NCBI RefSeq assembly: GCF_001697225.1
Contig: NZ_CP014671.1
Span: 2,790,001 to 2,854,000 of the forward strand
From: Immundisolibacter cernigliae
Lineage (GTDB): Bacteria; Pseudomonadota; Gammaproteobacteria; Immundisolibacterales; Immundisolibacteraceae
Reading direction: 5' to 3'
DNA: 64,000 nt
Within the stretch, counting starts at the first letter, position 1; each line of letters starts with the position of its first letter. The position numbers and the translations under genes are program-made. Of this stretch, positions 9,049 to 39,412 are shown in pieces. The notes under the pieces are model-generated. The model made no database searches. It saw only the letters and a program-made list of their open reading frames with translations, and was not told the origin of the DNA.

Positions 9049-9103
9049 CCACCTGCTGGTAGGGACGCGCAAATAGCGCGCGGCCCACAGCAGCACGTTA
9101 TGC
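9043..9103 (+). other. attC recombination site 2
   Basis: The 61-bp site begins ACATAAC (9043-9049) and ends GTTATGC (9097-9103), which are inverted complements at six of seven positions. Inside are CTGCTG / CAGCAG arms and the inner stem GGACGCGC / GCGCGCGGCC, giving the folded hairpin needed for single-strand recombination. This is the clearest attC in the window. Confidence 0.85.
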
Positions 9104-9110
9104 CCCAAGA

Positions 9111-9148
9111 AGCCCGCGTAGGGCGGAATAGCGCAGCGTATTCCGCCT
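9111..9148. repeat. REP-like palindrome, copy 1 (RAYT-associated)
   Basis: The unit reads AGCCCGCGTAGGGCGGAATA followed by the inverted arm GCGCAGCGTATTCCGCC. Identical units lie at 9561-9598 and, inverted, at 10176-10213. They bracket the two transposase remnants, as REPs bracket their RAYT genes. Confidence 0.8.
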
Positions 9149-9183
9149 TCCGGTTGCCCCGCCGTCACCGTTACACTCTCGCC

Positions 9184-9489
9184 ATGCCGCATTACGTTCG
9201 TGCTGACATCCCTGGCGGCACCTTCTTCTTTACCGTCGCCCTGCTCGAACGCCGCCGCCGGCTGTTGGTCAAGAACATCGGGACGCTGCGTGAAGCGTTT
9301 CGCGGCGTCCGGCATCGGCATCCTGTCACCATCGACGCCATCGTGATCCTCCCGGATCACCTGCACTGCGTCTGGACACTGCCGGCCGGCGATGCCGATT
9401 TCTCCAGCCGCTGGCGACCGATCAAAGCCGCCTTCGCGCGCGGCATCGCGGCTGGGGAACGGCTGTCCGAACGACGCCAGCCAGCGTAG
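9184..9489 (+). pseudogene. REP-associated tyrosine transposase (RAYT), truncated copy 1
   Basis: RAYT proteins are single-strand transposases related to IS200/IS605 TnpA that move or maintain REP palindromes. This 101-residue product keeps the N-terminus (MPHYVRADIPGGTFFFTVAL) and the HUH metal-binding motif in 'DHLHCVW', but ends after 'GERLSERRQ'. It therefore lacks the helix with the catalytic Tyr. It is nearly identical to the first part of the copy at 9635, so it is a partial tandem duplicate, truncated where another repeat begins at 9483. Confidence 0.85.
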
Positions 9490-9561
9490 GGTGGACAAAG
9501 CGCAGCGTGCCCACGCGGACACGGCGCCAGTCGTCGCATGCGGCTCATCGAAACCTCGTCA
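9483..9561 (-). repeat. Long palindromic repeat family C, copy 1 (inverted)
   Basis: This ~79-bp sequence, containing CGCATGCGGCTCATCGAAAC, recurs in opposite orientation at 33257-33338 and 36952-37036. It separates the two RAYT copies. Its outer arms (gcgtagggtgg / ccacgcgg) form a hairpin. Confidence 0.8.
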
Positions 9562-9598
9562 GCCCGCGTAGGGCGGAATAGCGCAGCGTATTCCGCCT
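9561..9598. repeat. REP-like palindrome, copy 2
   Basis: Same unit and orientation as 9111-9148, placed at the same distance before the second RAYT copy. This supports tandem duplication of a REP+RAYT block of about 450 bp. Confidence 0.8.
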
Positions 9599-9634
9599 CC
9601 CGGGTTGCCCCGCCGTCACCGTTACACTCCCGCC

Positions 9635-10161
9635 ATGCCGCATTACGTTCGTGCCGACATCCCTGGCGGAACCTTCTTCTTCACCGTCGCCCTGCTCGAA
9701 CGCCGCCGCCGGCTGTTGGCCCGGAACATCGGGACGCTGCGCGAAGCGTTTCGCGGCGTCCGGCATCGGCATCCGTTCACCATCGACGCCATCGTGATCC
9801 TCCCGGATCACCTGCACTGCGTCTGGACACTGCCGCCCGGCGATGCCGATTTCTCCACCCGCTGGCGACTGATCAAAGCCGCCTTCGCGCGCGGCATCGC
9901 GGCTGGGGAACGGCTGTCCGAACGACGCCAGCGCACCGGCGAGCGAGGCATCTGGCAGCGGCGTTCTGGGAACACGCGATCCGCGATGCGGCCGACCTGA
10001 CCCGACACGTGGACTACATTCATCACAACCCCGTGAAACACGGCCACGCCGACCGCGTTGTGGACTGGCCGTAGTCGTCGTTTCACCGCTACGTCGAGCG
10101 GGGTGTTTATCCACCGGACTGGGCCGCCGGATCAGCAGTGCGCGGGTTGAGTTTCGAGTAG
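9635..10161 (+). pseudogene. REP-associated tyrosine transposase (RAYT), full-length but disrupted copy 2
   Basis: The reading frame keeps 'DHLHCVW' (HUH motif) and, after a one-base deletion near 9970, continues in another frame as 'FWEHAIRDAADLTRHVDYI' with the catalytic-Tyr region 'YIHHNPVKHG'. A second lesion turns the Tyr codon of 'WPYSSFHRYV' into TAG at 10072-10074. The domain would otherwise end at the TAG at 10159-10161. Two independent lesions show it is dead. REPs flank it on both sides. Confidence 0.85.
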
Positions 10162-12403: not shown

Positions 12404-12799
12404 TTAGCCTGCAGACAGCGCTGCAGCAACGCCAGGGAACGCTCGCAATAACTTGCGATCCATCGTCACGAGCCTCGTGCCAAGTTTCATCGCCAGCGCC
12501 ACGAATTCGCAATCGTATGCGGAGCATTCGCTGTCGCGTACCAATTGCAGGACGCTGAGCGAGTCCACGTCGTATTCGGCGCCGTTGAGCAAGTCTTCTG
12601 CCTCACTCTGGAGGTCCTGCGCTTGCTGCAACGTCAGGCTTCCTCGCCGCATATATCCCGCAAGGATGTAACGAATTTCACTTCGCCACAGAACGGGCGC
12701 AGCCCAAACGGGGTCTTTTTCGAGCAGAGTCTCTGCGGCCACGGTGTACTCGCCGGGCAAGTACAGGTACGCCACGATATTCGAGTCGACAACAATCAA
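12404..12799 (-). CDS. vapC: PIN-domain toxin (VapC-like)
   Basis: This 131-residue PIN-domain ribonuclease has the expected acidic residues: D5 in 'VVDSNIVAY', E41, D96 in 'SAYDCEFVALA' and D114 in 'VTMDRKLL'. VapC toxins cleave tRNA or rRNA when freed from the antitoxin. Its ATG overlaps the antitoxin stop by four bases (ATGA), giving translational coupling. The pair reads on the minus strand between the FMN reductase and the acyl-CoA dehydrogenase. Confidence 0.9.
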   Translation of the reverse strand: MIVVDSNIVAYLYLPGEYTVAAETLLEKDPVWAAPVLWRSEIRYILAGYMRRGSLTLQQAQDLQSEAEDLLNGAEYDVDSLSVLQLVRDSECSAYDCEFVALAMKLGTRLVTMDRKLLRAFPGVAAALSAG

Positions 12800-13041
12800 G
12801 GGCGCCCCTGCCGTTTCAGGGTATCCATCTCACGTGCTGGAAATGTCGTCTCGCCCAACCCTGCCCTTAGCTGGCGCGCACGAGCAAGCCGTTCGCTGGG
12901 AGCTGTCGTGGTCGGTGTCAGCACAGCCTCAAGGCACACAATCGCCTCGCTGTTGAGGCTGCGGCGGTGCATCTGCGCTGCAACTTTCAGCCGTTCGTAC
13001 ACATCATCCGGAATGTTCTTCAACGTCAACGTCGTCGGCAT
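12796..13041 (-). CDS. vapB: VapB/FitA-like antitoxin (ribbon-helix-helix)
   Basis: This 81-residue protein has the N-terminal Arc/FitA ribbon-helix-helix 'MPTTLTLKNIPDDVYERLK', which binds operator DNA, and a C-terminal tail to neutralise the toxin. I chose the second ATG of the ATGATG pair because GGAGG ends five bases before it. A longer in-frame start at 13101 lacks such a site. It precedes and overlaps the PIN toxin and probably autoregulates the operon. Confidence 0.88.
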   Translation of the reverse strand: MPTTLTLKNIPDDVYERLKVAAQMHRRSLNSEAIVCLEAVLTPTTTAPSERLARARQLRAGLGETTFPAREMDTLKRQGRP

Positions 13042-13155
13042 CATAACCTCCAACCGTAATGGCACCAAAACGGTTCCATTATACGGCCTGCCTGTTGCCA
13101 ATCTGCGGGCTAAGCCATCGCTGCAGGGCGAGTTCTGCCTTCCGGAAGCGCCGTC

Positions 13156-14319
13156 TTACTTCGGCAAGCCCATCCAGTTGACGATGTTGTTGCGCTGGAT
13201 GGCCGACGAGCCGCCGAAGATCGGTAGCGCCAGCGAGTCGCGCACGTAGCGCTCCATGGGGAATTCGCTGGCGTAGCCGTAGGCGCCCATGACCTTTTGC
13301 GCGGCGAGCGTGATCTCGGTGCAGTACTCGGTGGCCATCAGTTTGGCGATGGCGGTTTCCACGCCGTGGCGGCCTTCGCCGTCCAGCTTGCCGGCCACCT
13401 GGTAGACCAGCGTGCGGGCGGTGTACAGCTTGGCCTGCATGTCGGCCAGCAGGTGGCGGATGGACTGGTACGAACCGATGGCCTTGCCGAACTGCTTGCG
13501 CTCCTGGGCATAGGTCCAGGCGTCTTCGAGCGCCGCCCAGGCGACGCCCAGCGCAATCGCCGCGACTTCGATCTTCTCCACATCCAGGCCCGGGCCGGCC
13601 AGCATTTCCCAGCCGCGGTTCCAGGCTGCCTCGCCGCCGACCAGGTTGGCCAGCGGCAGGCGCACGTTGTCGAAGTTGACGTCCGTGGTGTGGATGCCGC
13701 GCACGCCCATGCACTCGAAGGCGGTGACGGTGACGCCGGGCGCGGTCGGCGGGATCAGCACGAACGACAGGTTTTTGTAGCGCGCACCGGCGCGGTCGGA
13801 GCAGACCAGGGCATAGATGTAGTCGGCCTCGTCGGCGCCGGAGCAAAAGCGCTTGGCGCCGTTGATGATCAGTTCATCGCCGTCGCGCACGGCGGTGGTC
13901 TTGACGCTGCCCAGGTCCGAGCCGACGTCGGGTTCCGTCAGGCCGTAGGCGAAGATCAGCTTGCCCTCGGCGATTTTCGGCAGCAGCTCGCGCTTCTGGG
14001 CCTCGGAGCCGACCTCGGTGATGTTCATGCCGGCGTAGCAGGTGCACATGATGTAGGGCACCGACACCGCCAGCGAGCGGCGCGACAGTTCCTCGATCAC
14101 CGCCATGCAGGCCGGGATGTCCACGCCGGCGCCGCCGTATTCCTCCGGCACCGTCAGGCCGCACACGCCAAGCTCGGCCAGTTTGTCGAACACGGCGCGC
14201 GGGAACACGTCCTCGCGGTCCCAGCGCGCGGCCGCCTCGCGCGGCATTTCCTTATCCACGAAGCGGCGCAGCTGGTCACGCAGCAGGCGGATGTGTTCCG
14301 GTTCGGTCAGTTCGAGCAT
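13156..14319 (-). CDS. Acyl-CoA dehydrogenase
   Basis: This FAD enzyme introduces a double bond next to the thioester. The 387-residue product has the three-part ACAD fold: 'FVDKEMPREAAARWD', 'LTEPDVGSDLGSVKTTA' (substrate/FAD site) and 'GAYGYASEFPMERYVRDS'. At the usual YEGT base position near the C-terminus it reads 'IFGGSSAIQRN', so the Glu found in medium-chain enzymes is Gly. The base may sit elsewhere, as in isovaleryl- and long-chain types. It lies 164 bases downstream of the enoyl-CoA hydratase on the same strand, and both fit a ring-cleavage-product or branched-acid pathway. Confidence 0.9.
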   Translation of the reverse strand: MLELTEPEHIRLLRDQLRRFVDKEMPREAAARWDREDVFPRAVFDKLAELGVCGLTVPEEYGGAGVDIPACMAVIEELSRRSLAVSVPYIMCTCYAGMNITEVGSEAQKRELLPKIAEGKLIFAYGLTEPDVGSDLGSVKTTAVRDGDELIINGAKRFCSGADEADYIYALVCSDRAGARYKNLSFVLIPPTAPGVTVTAFECMGVRGIHTTDVNFDNVRLPLANLVGGEAAWNRGWEMLAGPGLDVEKIEVAAIALGVAWAALEDAWTYAQERKQFGKAIGSYQSIRHLLADMQAKLYTARTLVYQVAGKLDGEGRHGVETAIAKLMATEYCTEITLAAQKVMGAYGYASEFPMERYVRDSLALPIFGGSSAIQRNNIVNWMGLPK

Positions 14320-14483: not shown

Positions 14484-15266
14484 TCAGCGATTCTTCCACT
14501 CCGGCTTGCGGCGCTGGCCGAACGAGGCCAGGCCTTCCTGGATGTCCTGCCCGAACACGACCGGGTCCCAGATCTGGCGCTGGAATTCCTCCAGCACCTC
14601 GCGGTTGTACTTGACCGACAGGCGCACCGCCTGCGTGTGGGCGGCCACCGAGCGGGGCGAGTTGCCGGCGATTTTCTGTGCCAGTTTCATGGCCTCGGCC
14701 TGTACCTGGTCGTCCGCCACCACGCGATTGACCAGGCCGCAGGCCTTGGCCTCGGCGGCACCGAACGGCTCGGCGGTCAGCACCTTTTCCATGAACACGC
14801 GCGGGCCCATGAACTTCCACAGGTCCAGGTAGCCCATGGTCGGCATGCCGACCGAGGTTTCCGGGATGCCGAACTTGCACGACTCGCCGGACACGATCAG
14901 GTCGCAGGCGTTGGCCAGCAGCAGGCCGCCGGCCATGCAGTAGCCGTGCACGGCGGCGATCATCGGCTTGGGCGTGGCGCGCACCAGGGCGAAGGCTTCC
15001 AGGCCCTGGCGCGGCATGACGTAGAAATTGGCCGGCTCGTCGCCGATCAGCTCCAGGGCTTCCTTCAGATCCCCGCCGGTGCAGAAGGCCCGGCCCTCGC
15101 CGCGCAGCACGCCGACCCAGGCCTCGTCGTCGGCCGCGTACTGCTTAACCGCGGCGGTGAGGTCGTTGAGCATGGCCACGCTCATGGCGTTCATGGCCTC
15201 GGGGCGGTTCATGGTGATGACGGCAACGTGGCCGTCGCGGGCGTAGGTGACCAGCGGCTCGCTCAT
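14484..15266 (-). CDS. Enoyl-CoA hydratase/isomerase family protein
   Basis: This 260-residue crotonase-fold enzyme has the oxyanion-hole stretch 'GRAFCTGGDLKEAL' and 'VHGYCMAGGLLLANACDLI', followed by 'FGIPETSVGMPTMG' containing one catalytic Glu. The start at ATG 15266 is preceded by AAGGAG at about nine bases. It reads divergently from the extradiol dioxygenase; the 221-base gap holds a palindrome likely to be an operator. Exact substrate is unknown. Confidence 0.88.
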   Translation of the reverse strand: MSEPLVTYARDGHVAVITMNRPEAMNAMSVAMLNDLTAAVKQYAADDEAWVGVLRGEGRAFCTGGDLKEALELIGDEPANFYVMPRQGLEAFALVRATPKPMIAAVHGYCMAGGLLLANACDLIVSGESCKFGIPETSVGMPTMGYLDLWKFMGPRVFMEKVLTAEPFGAAEAKACGLVNRVVADDQVQAEAMKLAQKIAGNSPRSVAAHTQAVRLSVKYNREVLEEFQRQIWDPVVFGQDIQEGLASFGQRRKPEWKNR

Positions 15267-15386
15267 GAGCAGGTTTCTCCTTGGGATTTGCGTTGGGGGC
15301 GATACGTCCGGCGCTTGCCGGACGGTCGGTCGGCAGGATAAGCGATGCCCGCGCGGCCGGTACAGCGCGGCGTGCGACACGCCGGC

Positions 15387-15400: not shown

Positions 15401-15487
15401 GTGTGGCGCCCGCCTGCGTGGCGTAATGCGGTGCACGCCGGTACCGCTGGGGTTGCGGCGTCAGCCAGTCAACGCACAGAGGACGCT

Positions 15488-16429
15488 ATGGTCAAGGTTA
15501 CCGAACTGGGCTACATGGGCTTCAACGTCACCGACATGGCGGCGTGGGAGCGTTTTGCCACCGAAATCGTCGGCATGGAACTGCACGACGCCGGCGAGGG
15601 CGACCGCAAGTACCTGCGCCTGGACGACTGGCACCACCGCTTCGTGCTGCACAAGAGCAACGAGGACGACATGGCCTACATCGGCTGGCGCGTGCCGGGT
15701 CCGGACGAGCTGGAGGAAATGGCCGCCCAGCTGGAAGCCGCCAAGGTGCCGTACCGCTTCGCGAGTACCGCCGAGTGTGACGAGCGGCGCGTGCTGGGCC
15801 TGCTCAAGCTCACCGATCCGGGCGGCAACCCGACCGAGGTGTTCTACGGCCCGGAGGTGATGACCTTCCGGCCGTTCCATCCGGGCCGGCCGATGTTCGG
15901 GCGCTTCGTCACCGGCGATCAGGGTGTCGGGCACTGCATCCTGCGCCAGAGCGACGTCAAGGCGGCGTATGACTTCTACACCAAGGTGTTCGGCATGCGC
16001 GGCTCGGTGGAGTACAAGCTGCGCCAGCCCGACGGCTCGGTGGTCATGCCGACCTTCATGCACTGCAATGATCGCCAGCACTCGGTGGCCTTCCTGGGCG
16101 GGCCGATGCCAAAGCGCATCAACCACCTGATGCTGGAGTACACGGACCTGAACGACCTGGGCGTGGCCTATCACGCGGTGCGTCAGCACAAGCTGGCGGT
16201 GGGCATCGACATCGGCAAGCACTCCAACGACCAGGCCGTCACCTTCTACTGCGGCAACCCATCCGGCTGGCTGTCGGAACTGGGCTGGGGCGCGCGCTCG
16301 GCGCCGAGCCAGCAGGAGTACTACTCGGCCGACATCTGGGGCCACGAGGTGGAGGCATCCGGCTTCGGCATGGACCTGGACATGGTGGCGCCGGAGGAGG
16401 AAACCGCCGCCAAGGCCGACGCCGCCTGA
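15488..16429 (+). CDS. Type I extradiol dioxygenase (BphC-like, two VOC domains)
   Basis: This 313-residue enzyme should open a dihydroxylated aromatic ring next to its hydroxyls, using Fe(II). The metal triad is clear: H149 ('GVGHCIL'), H213 ('INHLMLEYTD') and E264 ('WLSELGWG'), at the spacing seen in 2,3-dihydroxybiphenyl 1,2-dioxygenase. The N-terminal VOC domain (residues 1-125) lacks metal ligands, as in relatives. ATG 15488 follows an 'agaggac' site. It stands 209 bases before the heme-oxygenase-like gene. The natural ring substrate is unknown. Confidence 0.9.
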   Translation: MVKVTELGYMGFNVTDMAAWERFATEIVGMELHDAGEGDRKYLRLDDWHHRFVLHKSNEDDMAYIGWRVPGPDELEEMAAQLEAAKVPYRFASTAECDERRVLGLLKLTDPGGNPTEVFYGPEVMTFRPFHPGRPMFGRFVTGDQGVGHCILRQSDVKAAYDFYTKVFGMRGSVEYKLRQPDGSVVMPTFMHCNDRQHSVAFLGGPMPKRINHLMLEYTDLNDLGVAYHAVRQHKLAVGIDIGKHSNDQAVTFYCGNPSGWLSELGWGARSAPSQQEYYSADIWGHEVEASGFGMDLDMVAPEEETAAKADAA

Positions 16430-16638: not shown

Positions 16639-17379
16639 ATGGCTACCGTTGCACACGACGTCCACACCGCTTATCTGATTGACGTAAAGGCCGACTGGCT
16701 CAGGCACCTGAAAAACGACATCCTGGAACCGGTCGCCGCGGCCGCGCTGGCCCATCCGGTGCTCAAGGAAATCGAGGCCGGCCGCCTGCCCAAGGACAAG
16801 TTCGCCCGCATGATGGCCAACCTGTGCTGGGTCATCACCGGTTTCCCGGAGTACGTGTCGGCGCTGGCCGCCGGCTGCCCCAAGAACGACCACGCCGTGA
16901 AAGCCGCGCTGCTGGAGAACGCCTACATCGAGCGCGACCACCCGTTCCTGCTGGCGCAGGCGGTGAACGCGCTCGGCGGCCCCGGCGACGCCATCCTGGA
17001 AGGCCCGGACTGGGTGTCGTTCCAGTTCGATCCCTACATCCACATGCTGCGCATGGTGCTCGAAGGCTACGTGTTCCACCGGCCGTGGATCGAGGGCATG
17101 GCGGCCACCGCGGTGGGCGTGGAAAGCGTGGTGCCGGCCGTGTTCGGTCGCATCGGTGAGGCGGCGGTGAAGCACTACGGCCTGGCCGAGGAAGACGCCG
17201 AATGGTTCCGCATCCACGGCGGCGAGGTGGAAATGGAACACGGCAATGAAGGCCTGCGCGTGCTCGAAAAATACGTGCCGGCCGACGACATCAACGCCCA
17301 GCGGGCGTGCATCGCCGGCGCCAGCCTGGTGGCGAATGCCATCGGCACCGGCCTGTTCGACGCCGTGGCGCGCTGGTAG
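16639..17379 (+). CDS. Heme-oxygenase-like (HDO/TenA/PqqC-fold) protein, copy 1
   Basis: This 246-residue helical protein belongs to the TenA/PqqC/CADD fold group, which includes diiron oxygenases and oxidases such as UndA and CADD. Candidate metal ligands are E98 and H101 ('YIERDHPF', an E-x2-H pair as in UndA), E162, H193 and H201 ('RIHGGEVEMEHGN'). This supports a non-heme iron oxygenase over a cofactorless PqqC role. GGAGG precedes ATG 16639. A ferredoxin-like gene follows four bases after its stop, and both genes are duplicated 1.6 kb downstream. Substrate unknown. Confidence 0.8.
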   Translation: MATVAHDVHTAYLIDVKADWLRHLKNDILEPVAAAALAHPVLKEIEAGRLPKDKFARMMANLCWVITGFPEYVSALAAGCPKNDHAVKAALLENAYIERDHPFLLAQAVNALGGPGDAILEGPDWVSFQFDPYIHMLRMVLEGYVFHRPWIEGMAATAVGVESVVPAVFGRIGEAAVKHYGLAEEDAEWFRIHGGEVEMEHGNEGLRVLEKYVPADDINAQRACIAGASLVANAIGTGLFDAVARW

Positions 17380-17383
17380 ACCG

Positions 17384-17692
17384 ATGGCGCGCATCCGCAT
17401 CAACGGCGGGCCGTGGCGCAAGGTGATGCCCGGCTCGAGCCTGCTGGGCCTGATCAAGGGCCGCGGCGGGGTGCCGATTCACACCTCGTGCGGCCTGGGC
17501 AGCTGCGGCTCGGACATTGTGCTGATCCTGTCCGGCATGGAGCACCTGAGTGCGCCGTTCCCGACCGAGCTGCGCACGCTGGCCGCCGAGGAAGCACCCG
17601 CCAACGCGCGCCTGTCCTGCGTCACCAAGCTGATGGACGGTGATGTCGAGGTAGAGGTGCCGGACTACAGCCTGGAACAGCCGGCGGCCTGA
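17384..17692 (+). CDS. 2Fe-2S ferredoxin-like protein with Asp at one ligand position, copy 1
   Basis: This 102-residue protein has the plant-type ferredoxin cluster loop, but the third Cys is replaced: C36-x4-C41-x2-D44 ('SCGLGSCGSDIVL'), with C79 as the distal ligand ('RLSCVTK'). Ordinary ferredoxins have C-x4-C-x2-C. It may bind a cluster with an Asp ligand, an altered cluster, or none. It starts four bases after the heme-oxygenase-like gene and lacks its own ribosome-binding site, so translation is probably coupled. It is the likely redox partner of that protein. Confidence 0.82.
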   Translation: MARIRINGGPWRKVMPGSSLLGLIKGRGGVPIHTSCGLGSCGSDIVLILSGMEHLSAPFPTELRTLAAEEAPANARLSCVTKLMDGDVEVEVPDYSLEQPAA

Positions 17693-17710
17693 GCCATGTC
17701 TTGATCCGGT

Positions 17711-17748
17711 AGCCGGCCGGTCCCGTGAAGGACCGGCCGGCTTTTTTT
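17711..17748 (+). terminator. Rho-independent terminator after ferredoxin copy 1
   Basis: A perfect 13-bp stem, AGCCGGCCGGTCC / GGACCGGCCGGCT, with loop CGTGAA, runs directly into seven T bases. It ends the first oxygenase-ferredoxin unit. The related terminator at 19357 shows that the duplication included it. Confidence 0.93.
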
Positions 17749-18270
17749 GTAGGAGCGGGCCATGCCCGCGACCGCAACACATCAGCAGGCGGATGCCTGT
17801 GGCGTGATCGGCTCGGTCGGGCCTGTTCTTTCCGTACCACCCGATGCGCCATGCCCGGCCGTCCAGGTCGCGGGCATGGCCCGCTCCTACCAACGCAGGG
17901 TGTGGCCAGCGGCCTGAGTGGCCAACAGAAATTCGAACAAACCGGCCAGCTCCTCGACGGAGCTGGCCGGTTTTTCATGCGTTTGAAGGGGCTGGGGGTC
18001 CGTCTGAGAGTCGGGAACGCGCCTTGTCACTCCCGGCAACCGGGCGCACTATCGGCCACGGGTTCTGAAGCACTGCTTCAAGCATGGAGCCATCGGTGGC
18101 GCGCCATACCGGGCAGGGTTTCAAACCCGATCGCACACCACGGAATCGGTCCGGGGACGTTCCGCGGACCGGGGTGTGGCGCATTTGGACGCGGGATTGC
18201 CGCGGCCAGGGACGGCGCGGCCATTACCAAGATCGATTCTTCAAACACCTGTTTCGAGGAGGAGAGCCCG
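17749..18270. repeat. Intergenic region with inverted repeat family A and a palindrome before copy 2
   Basis: GTAGGAGCGGGCCATGCCCG (from 17749) and its inverse complement ending at 17890 form widely spaced arms. A GC-rich imperfect palindrome, GGTCCGGGG-N4-CCGCGGACC, lies at about 18149-18171, some 100 bases before the next gene, and might be an operator. No gene is supported here. The second unit therefore seems to have its own promoter region. Confidence 0.65.
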
Positions 18271-19011
18271 ATGGCTAGCGTGATTGAAAATGTTCCGACC
18301 GACTATCTGATTGCCGTCAACAGCGACTGGCTGCAGCACATGAAGCGCGACGTGCTGGAGCCGATTGCGGCCCGCGGGCTGGCGCACCCGGTGCTGACCC
18401 AGATTCGCAGCGGTCGGCTGCCCAAGGAAAAATTCGCCCGCATGATGGCCAACCTGTGCTGGGTCATCACCGGTTTTCCGGAATACGTGGCGGCATTGGC
18501 GGCCCGCTGCCCCAAGAACGACCATGTCGTCAAAGCGGCGCTGCTGGAGAACGCCTACATCGAACGCGACCACCCGTTCCTGCTGGCGCAGGTGGTCAAT
18601 GCGCTGGGCGGTCCCGGCGACGCCATCCTGGAAGGCCCGGACTGGGTGTCGTTCGAGCCCGATCCCTACATCCACACGCTGCGCATCGTGATCGAGGGCT
18701 ACGTGTTCCACCGGCCCTGGGTGGAGGGCATGGCGGCCACCGCGGTCGGGGTGGAGACGGTCACACCGGCGGTGTTCGGCTCGCTCGGCAAGGCGGCGGT
18801 CGAACACTACGGCCTGTCCGAGGAGGACGCCGAGTGGTTCCGCATCCACGGCGGCGAGGTGGAGATGGAGCACGGCAACGACGGCCTGCGCGTGCTGGAC
18901 AAATACGTCGCGGCCGACGACATCAACACGCAGCGCGCCTGCACGGCGGGCGCCAGGCTGGTGTCCGAGGCGATCGGGGTCGGCATATTCGATATGGTTG
19001 CCCGCTGGTAA
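18271..19011 (+). CDS. Heme-oxygenase-like (HDO/TenA/PqqC-fold) protein, copy 2
   Basis: This 246-residue paralogue of the protein at 16639 has the same length, no gaps, and about four fifths of residues identical by eye. All candidate ligands are kept: E98 and H101 in 'YIERDHPF', the Glu in 'GVETVTPAVFG', and 'RIHGGEVEMEHGN'. A GAGGAGGAG ribosome-binding site lies just before ATG 18271. Conservation of both active sites suggests two working enzymes, perhaps with different substrates or a heteromer. Ferredoxin copy 2 follows after 17 bases. Confidence 0.8.
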   Translation: MASVIENVPTDYLIAVNSDWLQHMKRDVLEPIAARGLAHPVLTQIRSGRLPKEKFARMMANLCWVITGFPEYVAALAARCPKNDHVVKAALLENAYIERDHPFLLAQVVNALGGPGDAILEGPDWVSFEPDPYIHTLRIVIEGYVFHRPWVEGMAATAVGVETVTPAVFGSLGKAAVEHYGLSEEDAEWFRIHGGEVEMEHGNDGLRVLDKYVAADDINTQRACTAGARLVSEAIGVGIFDMVARW

Positions 19012-19028
19012 GCCCCGGGTAAGCCCAT

Positions 19029-19337
19029 ATGGCGCGCATCCGCATCAACGGCGGGCCGTGGCGCAGGGTGATGCCGGGCTCCAGCCTGCTCGGACTGGTC
19101 CGGGGCCGGGCCGGCATCCCGATCCACAGCTCATGTGGTCTTGGAAATTGCGGCTCGGACATTGTGCTGATCCTGTCCGGCATGGAGCACCTGAGTGCGC
19201 CGTTCCCGACCGAGCTGCGCACGCTGGCCGCCGAGGAAGCACCCGCCAACGCGCGTCTGTCCTGCGTCACCAAGCTGGTGGATGGCGACGTGGAAGTCGA
19301 GGTGCCGGACTACAGCTTGGAACAGCCGGCGGCCTGA
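19029..19337 (+). CDS. 2Fe-2S ferredoxin-like protein with Asp at one ligand position, copy 2
   Basis: This 102-residue paralogue differs from the copy at 17384 at under ten positions. It has the same substitution, C36-x4-C41-x2-D44 ('SCGLGNCGSDIVL'), and C79. The 129 bases from 19149 to 19277 match 17504-17632 with a single difference, silent positions included, while the first third is more diverged. That pattern suggests recent gene conversion. It starts 17 bases after oxygenase-like copy 2. Confidence 0.82.
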   Translation: MARIRINGGPWRRVMPGSSLLGLVRGRAGIPIHSSCGLGNCGSDIVLILSGMEHLSAPFPTELRTLAAEEAPANARLSCVTKLVDGDVEVEVPDYSLEQPAA

Positions 19338-19356
19338 GACGCGTTTTTGATCCGGT

Positions 19357-19394
19357 AGCCGGCTGGCCCTGTGAGGGGTCAGCCGGCTTTTTTT
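19357..19394 (+). terminator. Rho-independent terminator after ferredoxin copy 2
   Basis: The stem AGCCGGCTGGCCC / GGGTCAGCCGGCT (one G-T pair) is followed by a run of T bases. It is homologous to the terminator at 17711. Directly after it a family A repeat starts at 19395, with its inverse at 19468-19491. Confidence 0.92.
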
Positions 19395-19491
19395 GTAGGA
19401 GCGGGCCATGCCCGCGACCGGAACGGCGCGATCGATCGAACCGTTACGTCAGTCCGAAACCTCCGCGGTCGCGGGCATGGCCCGCTCCTAC
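19395..19491. repeat. Inverted repeat family A, copies 3 and 4
   Basis: GTAGGAGCGGGCCATGCCCG starts at 19395 and its inverse complement ends at 19491, the same layout as 17749-17890. The core inverted motif (GCGGGCCATGCCCGC) is itself a palindrome. Another copy lies at 39169. Confidence 0.8.
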
Positions 19492-19511: not shown

Positions 19512-20864
19512 TCAGCCGATACGGCTTTGCTGCCCGCTGACACCGCGCCCGATCAGCCGCCGCCACTCGCGGTACTGACCGTAATACAGCGTCTCGTCCA
19601 TGATGTCCGGCCCGCTCGACTCCGGGCTGATACCCAGCGCCTGCGCCATGTCGTCGGCGCCCTTGAGCATGCGCGTCATGCCGCGGTCGTAGCCCTGCTG
19701 CCAGGCCACGTAGCGGGCCTGAAAGCCGTCCTGGCAGGCCTCGAACTCGGTCAGGTCGTCCGGCGTCGCCATGCCGGTGGCGTTGAAGAAATCCTCGTAC
19801 TGGCGAATGCGCCGCTCGCGCTGGCCGCGGCTCTCGCCCCTGGGGGCGATGCAGTAGATCTGCACCTGCGTCAGGCCGGGCGCGATCGGCTGGAACACGC
19901 GGATCTGCGACGAGGCCTGCTCCATCAGGTTCACGTTCGGGTAGACCAGCAGGTTGCGCTGACGGCGCAGCATCCAGTCGGCATACACCTCGCCCATGCG
20001 CGCCCTGACCTCGTCGGCGCTGTCCCACAGCGGGCGGTTTTCCGGCCGCGGGAAGGTGCTCCAGATCATGGCGTGGCCACGGCCGAGGTCATAGCAGCCG
20101 GTGCGCCCGGCCAGGGCGTTCTTGTCGAAGCCGGTCTTGACCTTGTCAGCCCGGTCGCCGTGCTCGGCGCCTTCCAGACGCCGCGTGATGACGCCCACGT
20201 AATTGCCGTGCACGCTGGTGAAGTGGTAGCCGTCGATGCCGTTCTCGCACTGCATCTTCCAGTTGCCGCGGTAGGTATAGGTGGACGAGCCGCGCAGCAC
20301 CTCGACGCCGTCCGGCCCCATGCCGGCCAGCATGTCGATGAACGGCCGCGTGTTGCCCAGATGCGTTTCCAGGTCCGGCACGTCGGCGTTCAGGCTGCCG
20401 AACACGAAACCCTTGTACACGCCCACCCGCGGCACCGGCGCGAGATCGTGGTTGGCGCGCTGGAAGGCGTCCGGATAGGCGCCCTTGTCCTGGTCCTTGA
20501 TGTCCACGTTGCGCCCGGCGCTGTCGAACACCCAGCCGTGATAGGGGCAGGTGATGAACTTCTGGTTGCCATGGGCGGTGCGGCACAGCGCCGCGCCGCG
20601 GTGCGGGCAGGCGTTCAGGAAGGCATGCACGGCGCCGCCCGCGTCGCGCGTGACGATCACCGGCTGGCGGCCCATGCGGGTGCGGAAAAAGTCGTTCGGT
20701 TTGGCGACCTGGCTTTCGTGGCACAGGAAGATCCAGGTGCCCTCGAAGATGTGCTGCATCTCCAGGTCGAACAGTTCCTGGTCCGTGAACAGGCTGCGGC
20801 TGACCTCGAACTGCCAGCTGTCCGGCCGGTCGACGATCAGCCGGTCGATGTCGTTGGGTTTCAT
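19512..20864 (-). CDS. Rieske ring-hydroxylating oxygenase, large (alpha) subunit
   Basis: This 450-residue alpha subunit should add both atoms of O2 to an aromatic ring. The Rieske cluster ligands are C86 and H88 ('CPHRGA') and C106 and H109 ('CPYHGW'). The mononuclear iron site shows D211, H214 and H219 in 'ENGIDGYHFTSVHG'. Overall it resembles the benzoate/anthranilate dioxygenase group (BenA/AntA). No beta-subunit or reductase gene is adjacent. The palindrome TTGACGCGCGTCAA sits 64 bases before the ATG. Electron supply may come from elsewhere or from the nearby ferredoxin-like proteins. Confidence 0.92.
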   Translation of the reverse strand: MKPNDIDRLIVDRPDSWQFEVSRSLFTDQELFDLEMQHIFEGTWIFLCHESQVAKPNDFFRTRMGRQPVIVTRDAGGAVHAFLNACPHRGAALCRTAHGNQKFITCPYHGWVFDSAGRNVDIKDQDKGAYPDAFQRANHDLAPVPRVGVYKGFVFGSLNADVPDLETHLGNTRPFIDMLAGMGPDGVEVLRGSSTYTYRGNWKMQCENGIDGYHFTSVHGNYVGVITRRLEGAEHGDRADKVKTGFDKNALAGRTGCYDLGRGHAMIWSTFPRPENRPLWDSADEVRARMGEVYADWMLRRQRNLLVYPNVNLMEQASSQIRVFQPIAPGLTQVQIYCIAPRGESRGQRERRIRQYEDFFNATGMATPDDLTEFEACQDGFQARYVAWQQGYDRGMTRMLKGADDMAQALGISPESSGPDIMDETLYYGQYREWRRLIGRGVSGQQSRIG

Positions 20865-39117: not shown

Positions 39118-39412
39118 GCGGGCCGACGTCATGGATGGATCGTCTTTACCCAGGCCGTGCAGCTTGGTGTAGGAGCGGGCCATGCCCGCGACGGTGTCTT
39201 GCGCAACGCCCACCCGTCCGCGGGATTCCGGTGTAGGTGCCCGGCTATGCCGGGCGATGGGCCGGCGGCACACGGCCACTGGCAAGGCGATGGCGGCCAG
39301 CCACGCCCCGCCATCGCGCAGCACAGCTGCGCTCCCACAGGTGATGGGGCGCTTGCGTGGTGGTGATCGGATGGTTCAAGCCAGACAGGCGGGCCGGTAC
39401 ATATCCGGCAAT

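Follow-up and report, generated by a model that had tools for sequence, protein, structure and literature searches.

A Tandem Pair of Heme-Oxygenase-Like Protein and Ferredoxin Genes in Immundisolibacter cernigliae: A Candidate Two-Component Oxygenase

The cellular route by which heme-oxygenase-like diiron oxidases and oxygenases (HDOs) receive electrons is still largely an open question, and it is raised in concrete form by a locus of Immundisolibacter cernigliae in which a gene for an HDO-fold protein is followed by a gene for a ferredoxin, twice in tandem. The locus lies in a stretch of 64,000 nucleotides (nt), positions 2,790,001-2,854,000 of the single 3.24-Mb contig of this genome (G000), which we refer to as the window. 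A previous sequence-only reading had described the two units as a candidate new oxygenase system in which a dedicated ferredoxin serves as electron donor. Our analysis modestly favors the view that each unit encodes an O2-activating diiron HDO oxidase or oxygenase together with its own ferredoxin donor, used in aromatic or acyl catabolism. For this view the genes, the predicted fold, ligand conservation, co-conservation, duplication, and selection were computed or observed.

Organization of the Tandem Units

Both units are on the plus strand and consist of a 246-amino-acid HDO gene, a 102-amino-acid Fer2 ferredoxin gene, an intrinsic terminator, and a pair of repetitive extragenic palindrome (REP)-like elements. 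In copy 1, the HDO gene (16639..17379) is separated by 4 nt from the ferredoxin gene (17384..17692), and the terminator stem follows at 17711..17742. In copy 2, the HDO gene (18271..19011), a gap of 17 nt, the ferredoxin gene (19029..19337), and the terminator stem (19357..19388) are arranged in the same order. The ferredoxin gene is probably co-translated with the HDO gene. The open reading frame (ORF) list confirmed the lengths, order, and strand that had been given for these frames, and the related terminators noted previously were both found by a terminator scan, with folding z-scores against shuffled sequences of -5.2 (copy 1) and -5.4 (copy 2). The DNA of the two units is alike only from the start codon of the HDO gene until shortly after the terminator, and the regions upstream are unrelated.

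A Predicted 3His/3Carboxylate HDO

The two HDO copies matched PF14518 (iron-containing redox enzyme, haem-oxygenase-like) above the gathering score, with E-values of 4.4e-11 and 3e-12. The best solved matches to the AlphaFold (AF2) model (pLDDT 90.8, pTM 0.87, from a 14-sequence alignment) were HDO/TenA/PqqC folds, namely PSPTO1738 (Z 23.9), CADD (Z 23.8; 2.2 Å over 209 residues), and UndA (Z 23.5). The window HDO probably has a heme-oxygenase-like fold that is closest to CADD and UndA, in keeping with the family to which it had been assigned from its sequence.

In a profile alignment, residues E98, H101, E162, H193, E198, and H201 paired with E81, H88, E142, H174, D178, and H181 of CADD. All six putative ligands were invariant in 14 homologues, one of them a protein of Candidatus Tectomicrobia that is 39% identical, and the set is the same in the two copies. 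Five of these residues had been named as ligands by the sequence-only reading and held up; its list was incomplete in that E198 was missed. With an extra residue after H193, the last motif reads HGGEVEMEH, or H-x4-E-x2-H, as opposed to the usual H-x3-D-x2-H, and Glu198 replaces the Asp. The AlphaFold model breaks the helix at this insertion, giving helices 184-193 and 196-212. The putative ligands coincide with the diiron positions established for CADD, and from this structural and sequence equivalence we infer that they cluster in space and would provide a complete 3His/3carboxylate diiron set. This is the majority ligand type among HDOs (2026 HDO review, PMC13108848), and the predicted H-x4-E-x2-H ligand helix is a new variant among them.

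A Ferredoxin With Three Cysteines and an Aspartate

The ferredoxin-like assignment was also upheld, as both copies matched PF00111 (Fer2) above the gathering score with E-values of 1.3e-6 and 4.8e-7. What the sequence-only reading had missed is that the protein has just three cysteines, Cys36, Cys41, and Cys79. When the protein is aligned with solved ferredoxins, among them Ferredoxin-4 (9i2a), Asp44 faces the third ligand cysteine, so that the plant-type four-cysteine signature C-x4-C-x2-C-xn-C carries an Asp at its third position in all six homologues. The three cysteines are likewise invariant in this set, down to 59% identity, and copy 2 retains Asp44.

A DNA pattern for C-G-x-G-x-C-G-S/T-D was searched in the window genes and in 318 other genomes of the phylum. 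Both window genes matched, and the pattern was otherwise found at two places only (G173 and G175), neither in a Fer2 protein; by this pattern, no further Fer2 protein with Asp at the third position was found among the 318 sampled genomes. The Cys version of the pattern gave matches in 29 genomes, 24 of them in recognizable Fer2-type proteins. A review of iron-sulfur (Fe-S) clusters gives Asp-ligated examples for [4Fe-4S] only and no Asp-ligated [2Fe-2S] ferredoxin (PMC11138216). Asp44 is a possible cluster ligand in place of Cys, and the putative Asp-for-Cys ferredoxin counts as new.

Conservation and Age of the Pair

The HDO-ferredoxin pair was present in six copies in five Immundisolibacteraceae genomes (twice in G000 and once each in G001, G002, G003, and G005). 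Because its flanks in G003 and G005 differ from those in the window, the pair appears to travel as a unit, and the co-conservation on which the idea of a joint system depended was borne out in differing neighborhoods. In our scan of genome contigs, relatives of the HDO were confined to the same family and one Candidatus Tectomicrobia. At an E-value of 1e-15, the remaining sampled genomes of the phylum held none, and viral contigs and plasmids yielded none. Relatives of the ferredoxin at 1e-9 were absent outside the family among 369 genomes of the class; phages yielded none, and plasmids yielded one weak match at 34.9% identity.

Between copy 1 and copy 2, amino acid identity is 80.1% for the HDO and 92.2% for the ferredoxin. 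Nonsynonymous divergence (dN, NG86 method) is well under synonymous divergence (dS) for both the HDO (0.13 vs. 0.53) and the ferredoxin (0.04 vs. 0.34), indicating that both genes encode proteins under purifying selection. Copy 1 shares 98% identity with the one copy observed in G001 and 96% with that of G002, and copy 2 branches outside this group of three (tree support 85/94). A recent duplication was rejected on the basis of this branching, which places the duplication probably before the split of these species. The second copy was probably lost in G001; for G002, the contig stops too soon to show whether it was retained. Later gene conversion is suggested by two neighboring 60-nt stretches of the ferredoxin genes, which match between the copies at 60/60 and 58/60 positions.

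Electron Supply to the HDO

Metal content, the cluster with its Asp ligand, electron flow, and the reaction are all predicted in the mechanism that we propose. The HDO would bind two irons through the three His and three carboxylates aligned above (E98, H101, E162, H193, E198, and H201), and the 102-amino-acid protein would be a plant/Isc-type [2Fe-2S] ferredoxin with Asp44, not Cys, as the third ligand. A reductase encoded elsewhere in the genome would re-reduce the ferredoxin, which in turn would take the HDO from the diferric to the diferrous state. The diferrous HDO would then bind O2 to give a peroxo-diferric species, as is formed in other HDOs (PMC13108848), and this species would oxidize a carbon substrate. 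The reaction would be a hydroxylation, a desaturation, or an oxidative cleavage of a C-C bond, and it probably serves to degrade aromatic or acyl-CoA compounds.

Support for the ferredoxin as donor comes from other HDO-ferredoxin loci and from MboAB. Other PF14518 genes were sampled for such loci. The HDO gene of G375 is followed 4 nt on by a Fer2 ferredoxin gene and soon after by a second one. The same nearby set occurs in G344 and on plasmid pSBC2-4 of Caballeronia sp. SBC2, and all three encode an aldehyde dehydrogenase and a reductase of the Fer2/FAD/NAD type as well. These conserved clusters of G375, G344, and pSBC2-4 (L079:2242-9030, L080:4289-12034, and L084:6783-11864) look, from their gene content, as if they supplied every step of electron transfer from NADH to the HDO, in a catabolic context. 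Close HDO relatives are also present on Cupriavidus megaplasmids. In G835 (L078:1441-2479; a relative of the Tectomicrobia genome), an HDO gene is followed by a gene for a Rieske-type [2Fe-2S] ferredoxin. The label of Fer2 pairing needs two changes on the HDO tree. Pairing with [2Fe-2S] carriers recurs in other HDO branches, and this recurrence is itself new. MboAB was described in 2026 as perhaps the first characterized dedicated pair of an HDO and a redox partner: MboA, the HDO, needs the reductase partner MboB for full turnover, and other HDOs have been assayed with chemical reductants or mediators (PMC13185094).

Several observations weigh against this account. The end of a BenA-like Rieske oxygenase gene lies 175 nt past copy 2, and its product could be the client of the ferredoxin; a ferredoxin reductase gene was not seen near the units. 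Such an adjacent ferredoxin is lacking for the clade's HDO paralogues of classes b and c and for that of Tectomicrobia, and paralogues without one occur in G000, G001, G003, G004, and G006; it follows that the ferredoxin is not essential to the chemistry of the family. The AF2 model of the ferredoxin is poor (pLDDT 44 from six sequences), so that the assignment of Asp44 rests on sequence alignment. Finally, the absence of the third cysteine could mean a weak cluster or none.

The alternative that survives best is that the ferredoxin is the donor of the adjacent BenA-like Rieske oxygenase, whose alpha subunit gene (19512..20864, minus strand) is convergent with the units, and that the HDO is a separate enzyme or a Rieske accessory. 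BenA-type oxygenases normally receive electrons from a plant-type Fer2 domain, and a Rieske gene was located within 1.5 kb of the clade's HDO at seven loci (the window, G001, G005, G004b, G000c, G001c, and G006c). Three of the five HDO loci in G000 have a Rieske gene within this distance (P ~0.005; 0.01-0.02 at 2-3 kb; 0.005-0.018 over the distances used). Such neighbors, however, come cheaply in a 3.24-Mb genome with 78 Rieske-domain matches, an unusually large set, and 20 relatives of the window's alpha subunit (E < 1e-100). Moreover, no Rieske gene was found within ~10 kb of the G003 pair, the c-class HDOs adjoin Rieske genes without any such ferredoxin, and the ferredoxin is in the operon of the HDO whereas the Rieske gene is convergent or divergent. 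We consider this alternative unlikely, if worth serious attention.

Next, and improbable as well, is that the ferredoxin-like protein no longer carries a cluster and acts as a structural or regulatory partner of an HDO that is reduced by unspecific donors. The third cysteine is absent in 6/6 homologues, clade members without a ferredoxin exist, and other HDOs can be driven by chemical reductants or mediators (PMC13185094). Against loss of the cluster stand the low dN/dS, a Fer2 score above the gathering threshold, and three cysteines and an Asp, a possible ligand, that are invariant down to 59% identity.

A reading that we regard as very improbable takes the HDO for a p-aminobenzoate synthase of the self-sacrificing CADD type or for some other enzyme of a cofactor pathway. 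In its favor, the top Protein Data Bank (PDB) sequence matches of the HDO are 4-aminobenzoate synthases, and the pair in G003 and G005 adjoins genes resembling MetF, SahH, and MetK by eye. Against it, the CADD subfamily model TIGR04305 gives 35.9 and 28.6 bits where the cut-off is 200, and in the alignment the window HDO has Leu42, Val161, and Ile172/Leu172 where CADD has Tyr27, Tyr141, and Lys152. The p-aminobenzoate made by CADD derives from the enzyme's own Tyr27 and Lys152 (PMC13108848), and identity as such a synthase was rejected since these sacrificial residues, like Tyr141, are absent in the window HDO.

Genomic Setting and Implications

The dedicated-donor reading takes its metabolic setting from the neighboring genes, which agree with the extradiol dioxygenase, Rieske oxygenase, and CoA-ester enzymes named previously. 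Apart from the Rieske gene, these are a BphC-type 2,3-dihydroxybiphenyl 1,2-dioxygenase (extradiol; 15431..16429, plus strand; TIGR03213 at 373.9 bits, cut-off 366.45), an enoyl-CoA hydratase (14484..15269, minus strand), and an acyl-CoA dehydrogenase (13156..14319, minus strand). Most of these genus-level neighbors (dioxygenase, Rieske, hydratase, and acyl-CoA dehydrogenase) are not retained outside the genus. From the neighbors within the genus, aromatic or acyl catabolism is the likeliest setting.

More tentatively, the units may represent a class of catabolic two-component diiron oxygenases, combining an HDO with an H-x4-E-x2-H helix and a Cys3Asp [2Fe-2S] ferredoxin whose Asp would tune potential or lability; this is a proposal that we would sooner expect to fail than to hold. 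A naturally occurring Cys3Asp ferredoxin with a [2Fe-2S] cluster would by itself be a curiosity of practical use. The co-conserved pair and the clusters with a reductase would make the physiological electron path of HDOs directly testable and would extend these enzymes from biosynthesis into catabolism, here in a bacterium that carries the pair in duplicate beside a very large set of genes for aromatic oxidation.

Other HDO genes were observed. At L042:6885-8823, in the genome of the window, an HDO with H-x3-D-x2-H is encoded ~29 nt upstream of a Rieske oxygenase alpha subunit and ahead of an apparent aldehyde dehydrogenase, on the same strand. A third paralogue of the window HDO adjoins a BenA-like Rieske gene at L036:6474-8879, which is interrupted by a stop codon (TAG) in G000 and intact in G001 (L039). 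A further HDO, at L043:6015-8985, is flanked by an AMP-binding ligase on one side and a short-chain dehydrogenase on the other. The REP-like elements form an inverted pair after copy 1 (17749..17890; GTAGGAGCGGGCCATGCCCGCGA) and a second pair of the same element after copy 2 (19395..19491), neither assigned to a strand. They are exact 23-nt repeats, a further one being located at 39169-39191 of the window. The ORFs at 9100-10000 are mutually similar, and one matches the IS200-like Y1 transposase weakly, below the cut-off; they are possibly remnants of a REP-associated transposase. A pair encoding a PIN-domain toxin and a FitA-like antitoxin is on the minus strand at 12404-13101.

Comparison With Known Systems

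Taken as a whole, the sequence-only reading is partly supported: its observation was right and slightly understated, and its interpretation is plausible and partly inferred, if less new than proposed. To call the units a new oxygenase system was too strong, as the HDO superfamily is known, MboAB has already been characterized, and other HDO-ferredoxin loci exist.

By fold and sequence, the HDO resembles CADD (4-aminobenzoate synthase), with alignable ligands and the top PDB sequence similarity. It differs in lacking the sacrificial Tyr and Lys, in having Glu198 for Asp178, and in the one-residue insertion in the last motif. UndA, a fatty-acid decarboxylase HDO, is nearly collinear with the window HDO over residues 12-246 (2.3 Å over 222 residues), but identity is ~14% and the HDO review mentions no dedicated ferredoxin for UndA (PMC13108848). 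The ferredoxin belongs to the Fer2 family with the plant-type and Isc-type [2Fe-2S] ferredoxins, Ferredoxin-4 (9i2a) being the nearest solved one, and has three of four cluster cysteines in common with them; they have Cys at the third position, whereas all window-type members have Asp44. The Caballeronia/Cupriavidus-type clusters (L079, L080, and L084) likewise have an HDO with adjacent Fer2 ferredoxins, but these HDOs are on a separate branch with H-x3-D-x2-H, the ferredoxins have the canonical four cysteines, and a reductase is encoded in the cluster. MboA and MboB, the HDO acetylenase and reductase of mangotoxin biosynthesis, share with the window units a dedicated [2Fe-2S] redox partner in the same operon (PMC13185094), and MboA has the same first motif, E-x2-H (E86 and H89), and a 3His/3carboxylate set. 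MboB, however, is a reductase with a flavin and a [2Fe-2S] cluster in place of the small ferredoxin of the window, and MboA takes a peptide as its substrate in the biosynthesis of a natural product and has Asp in the last helix where the window HDO has Glu.

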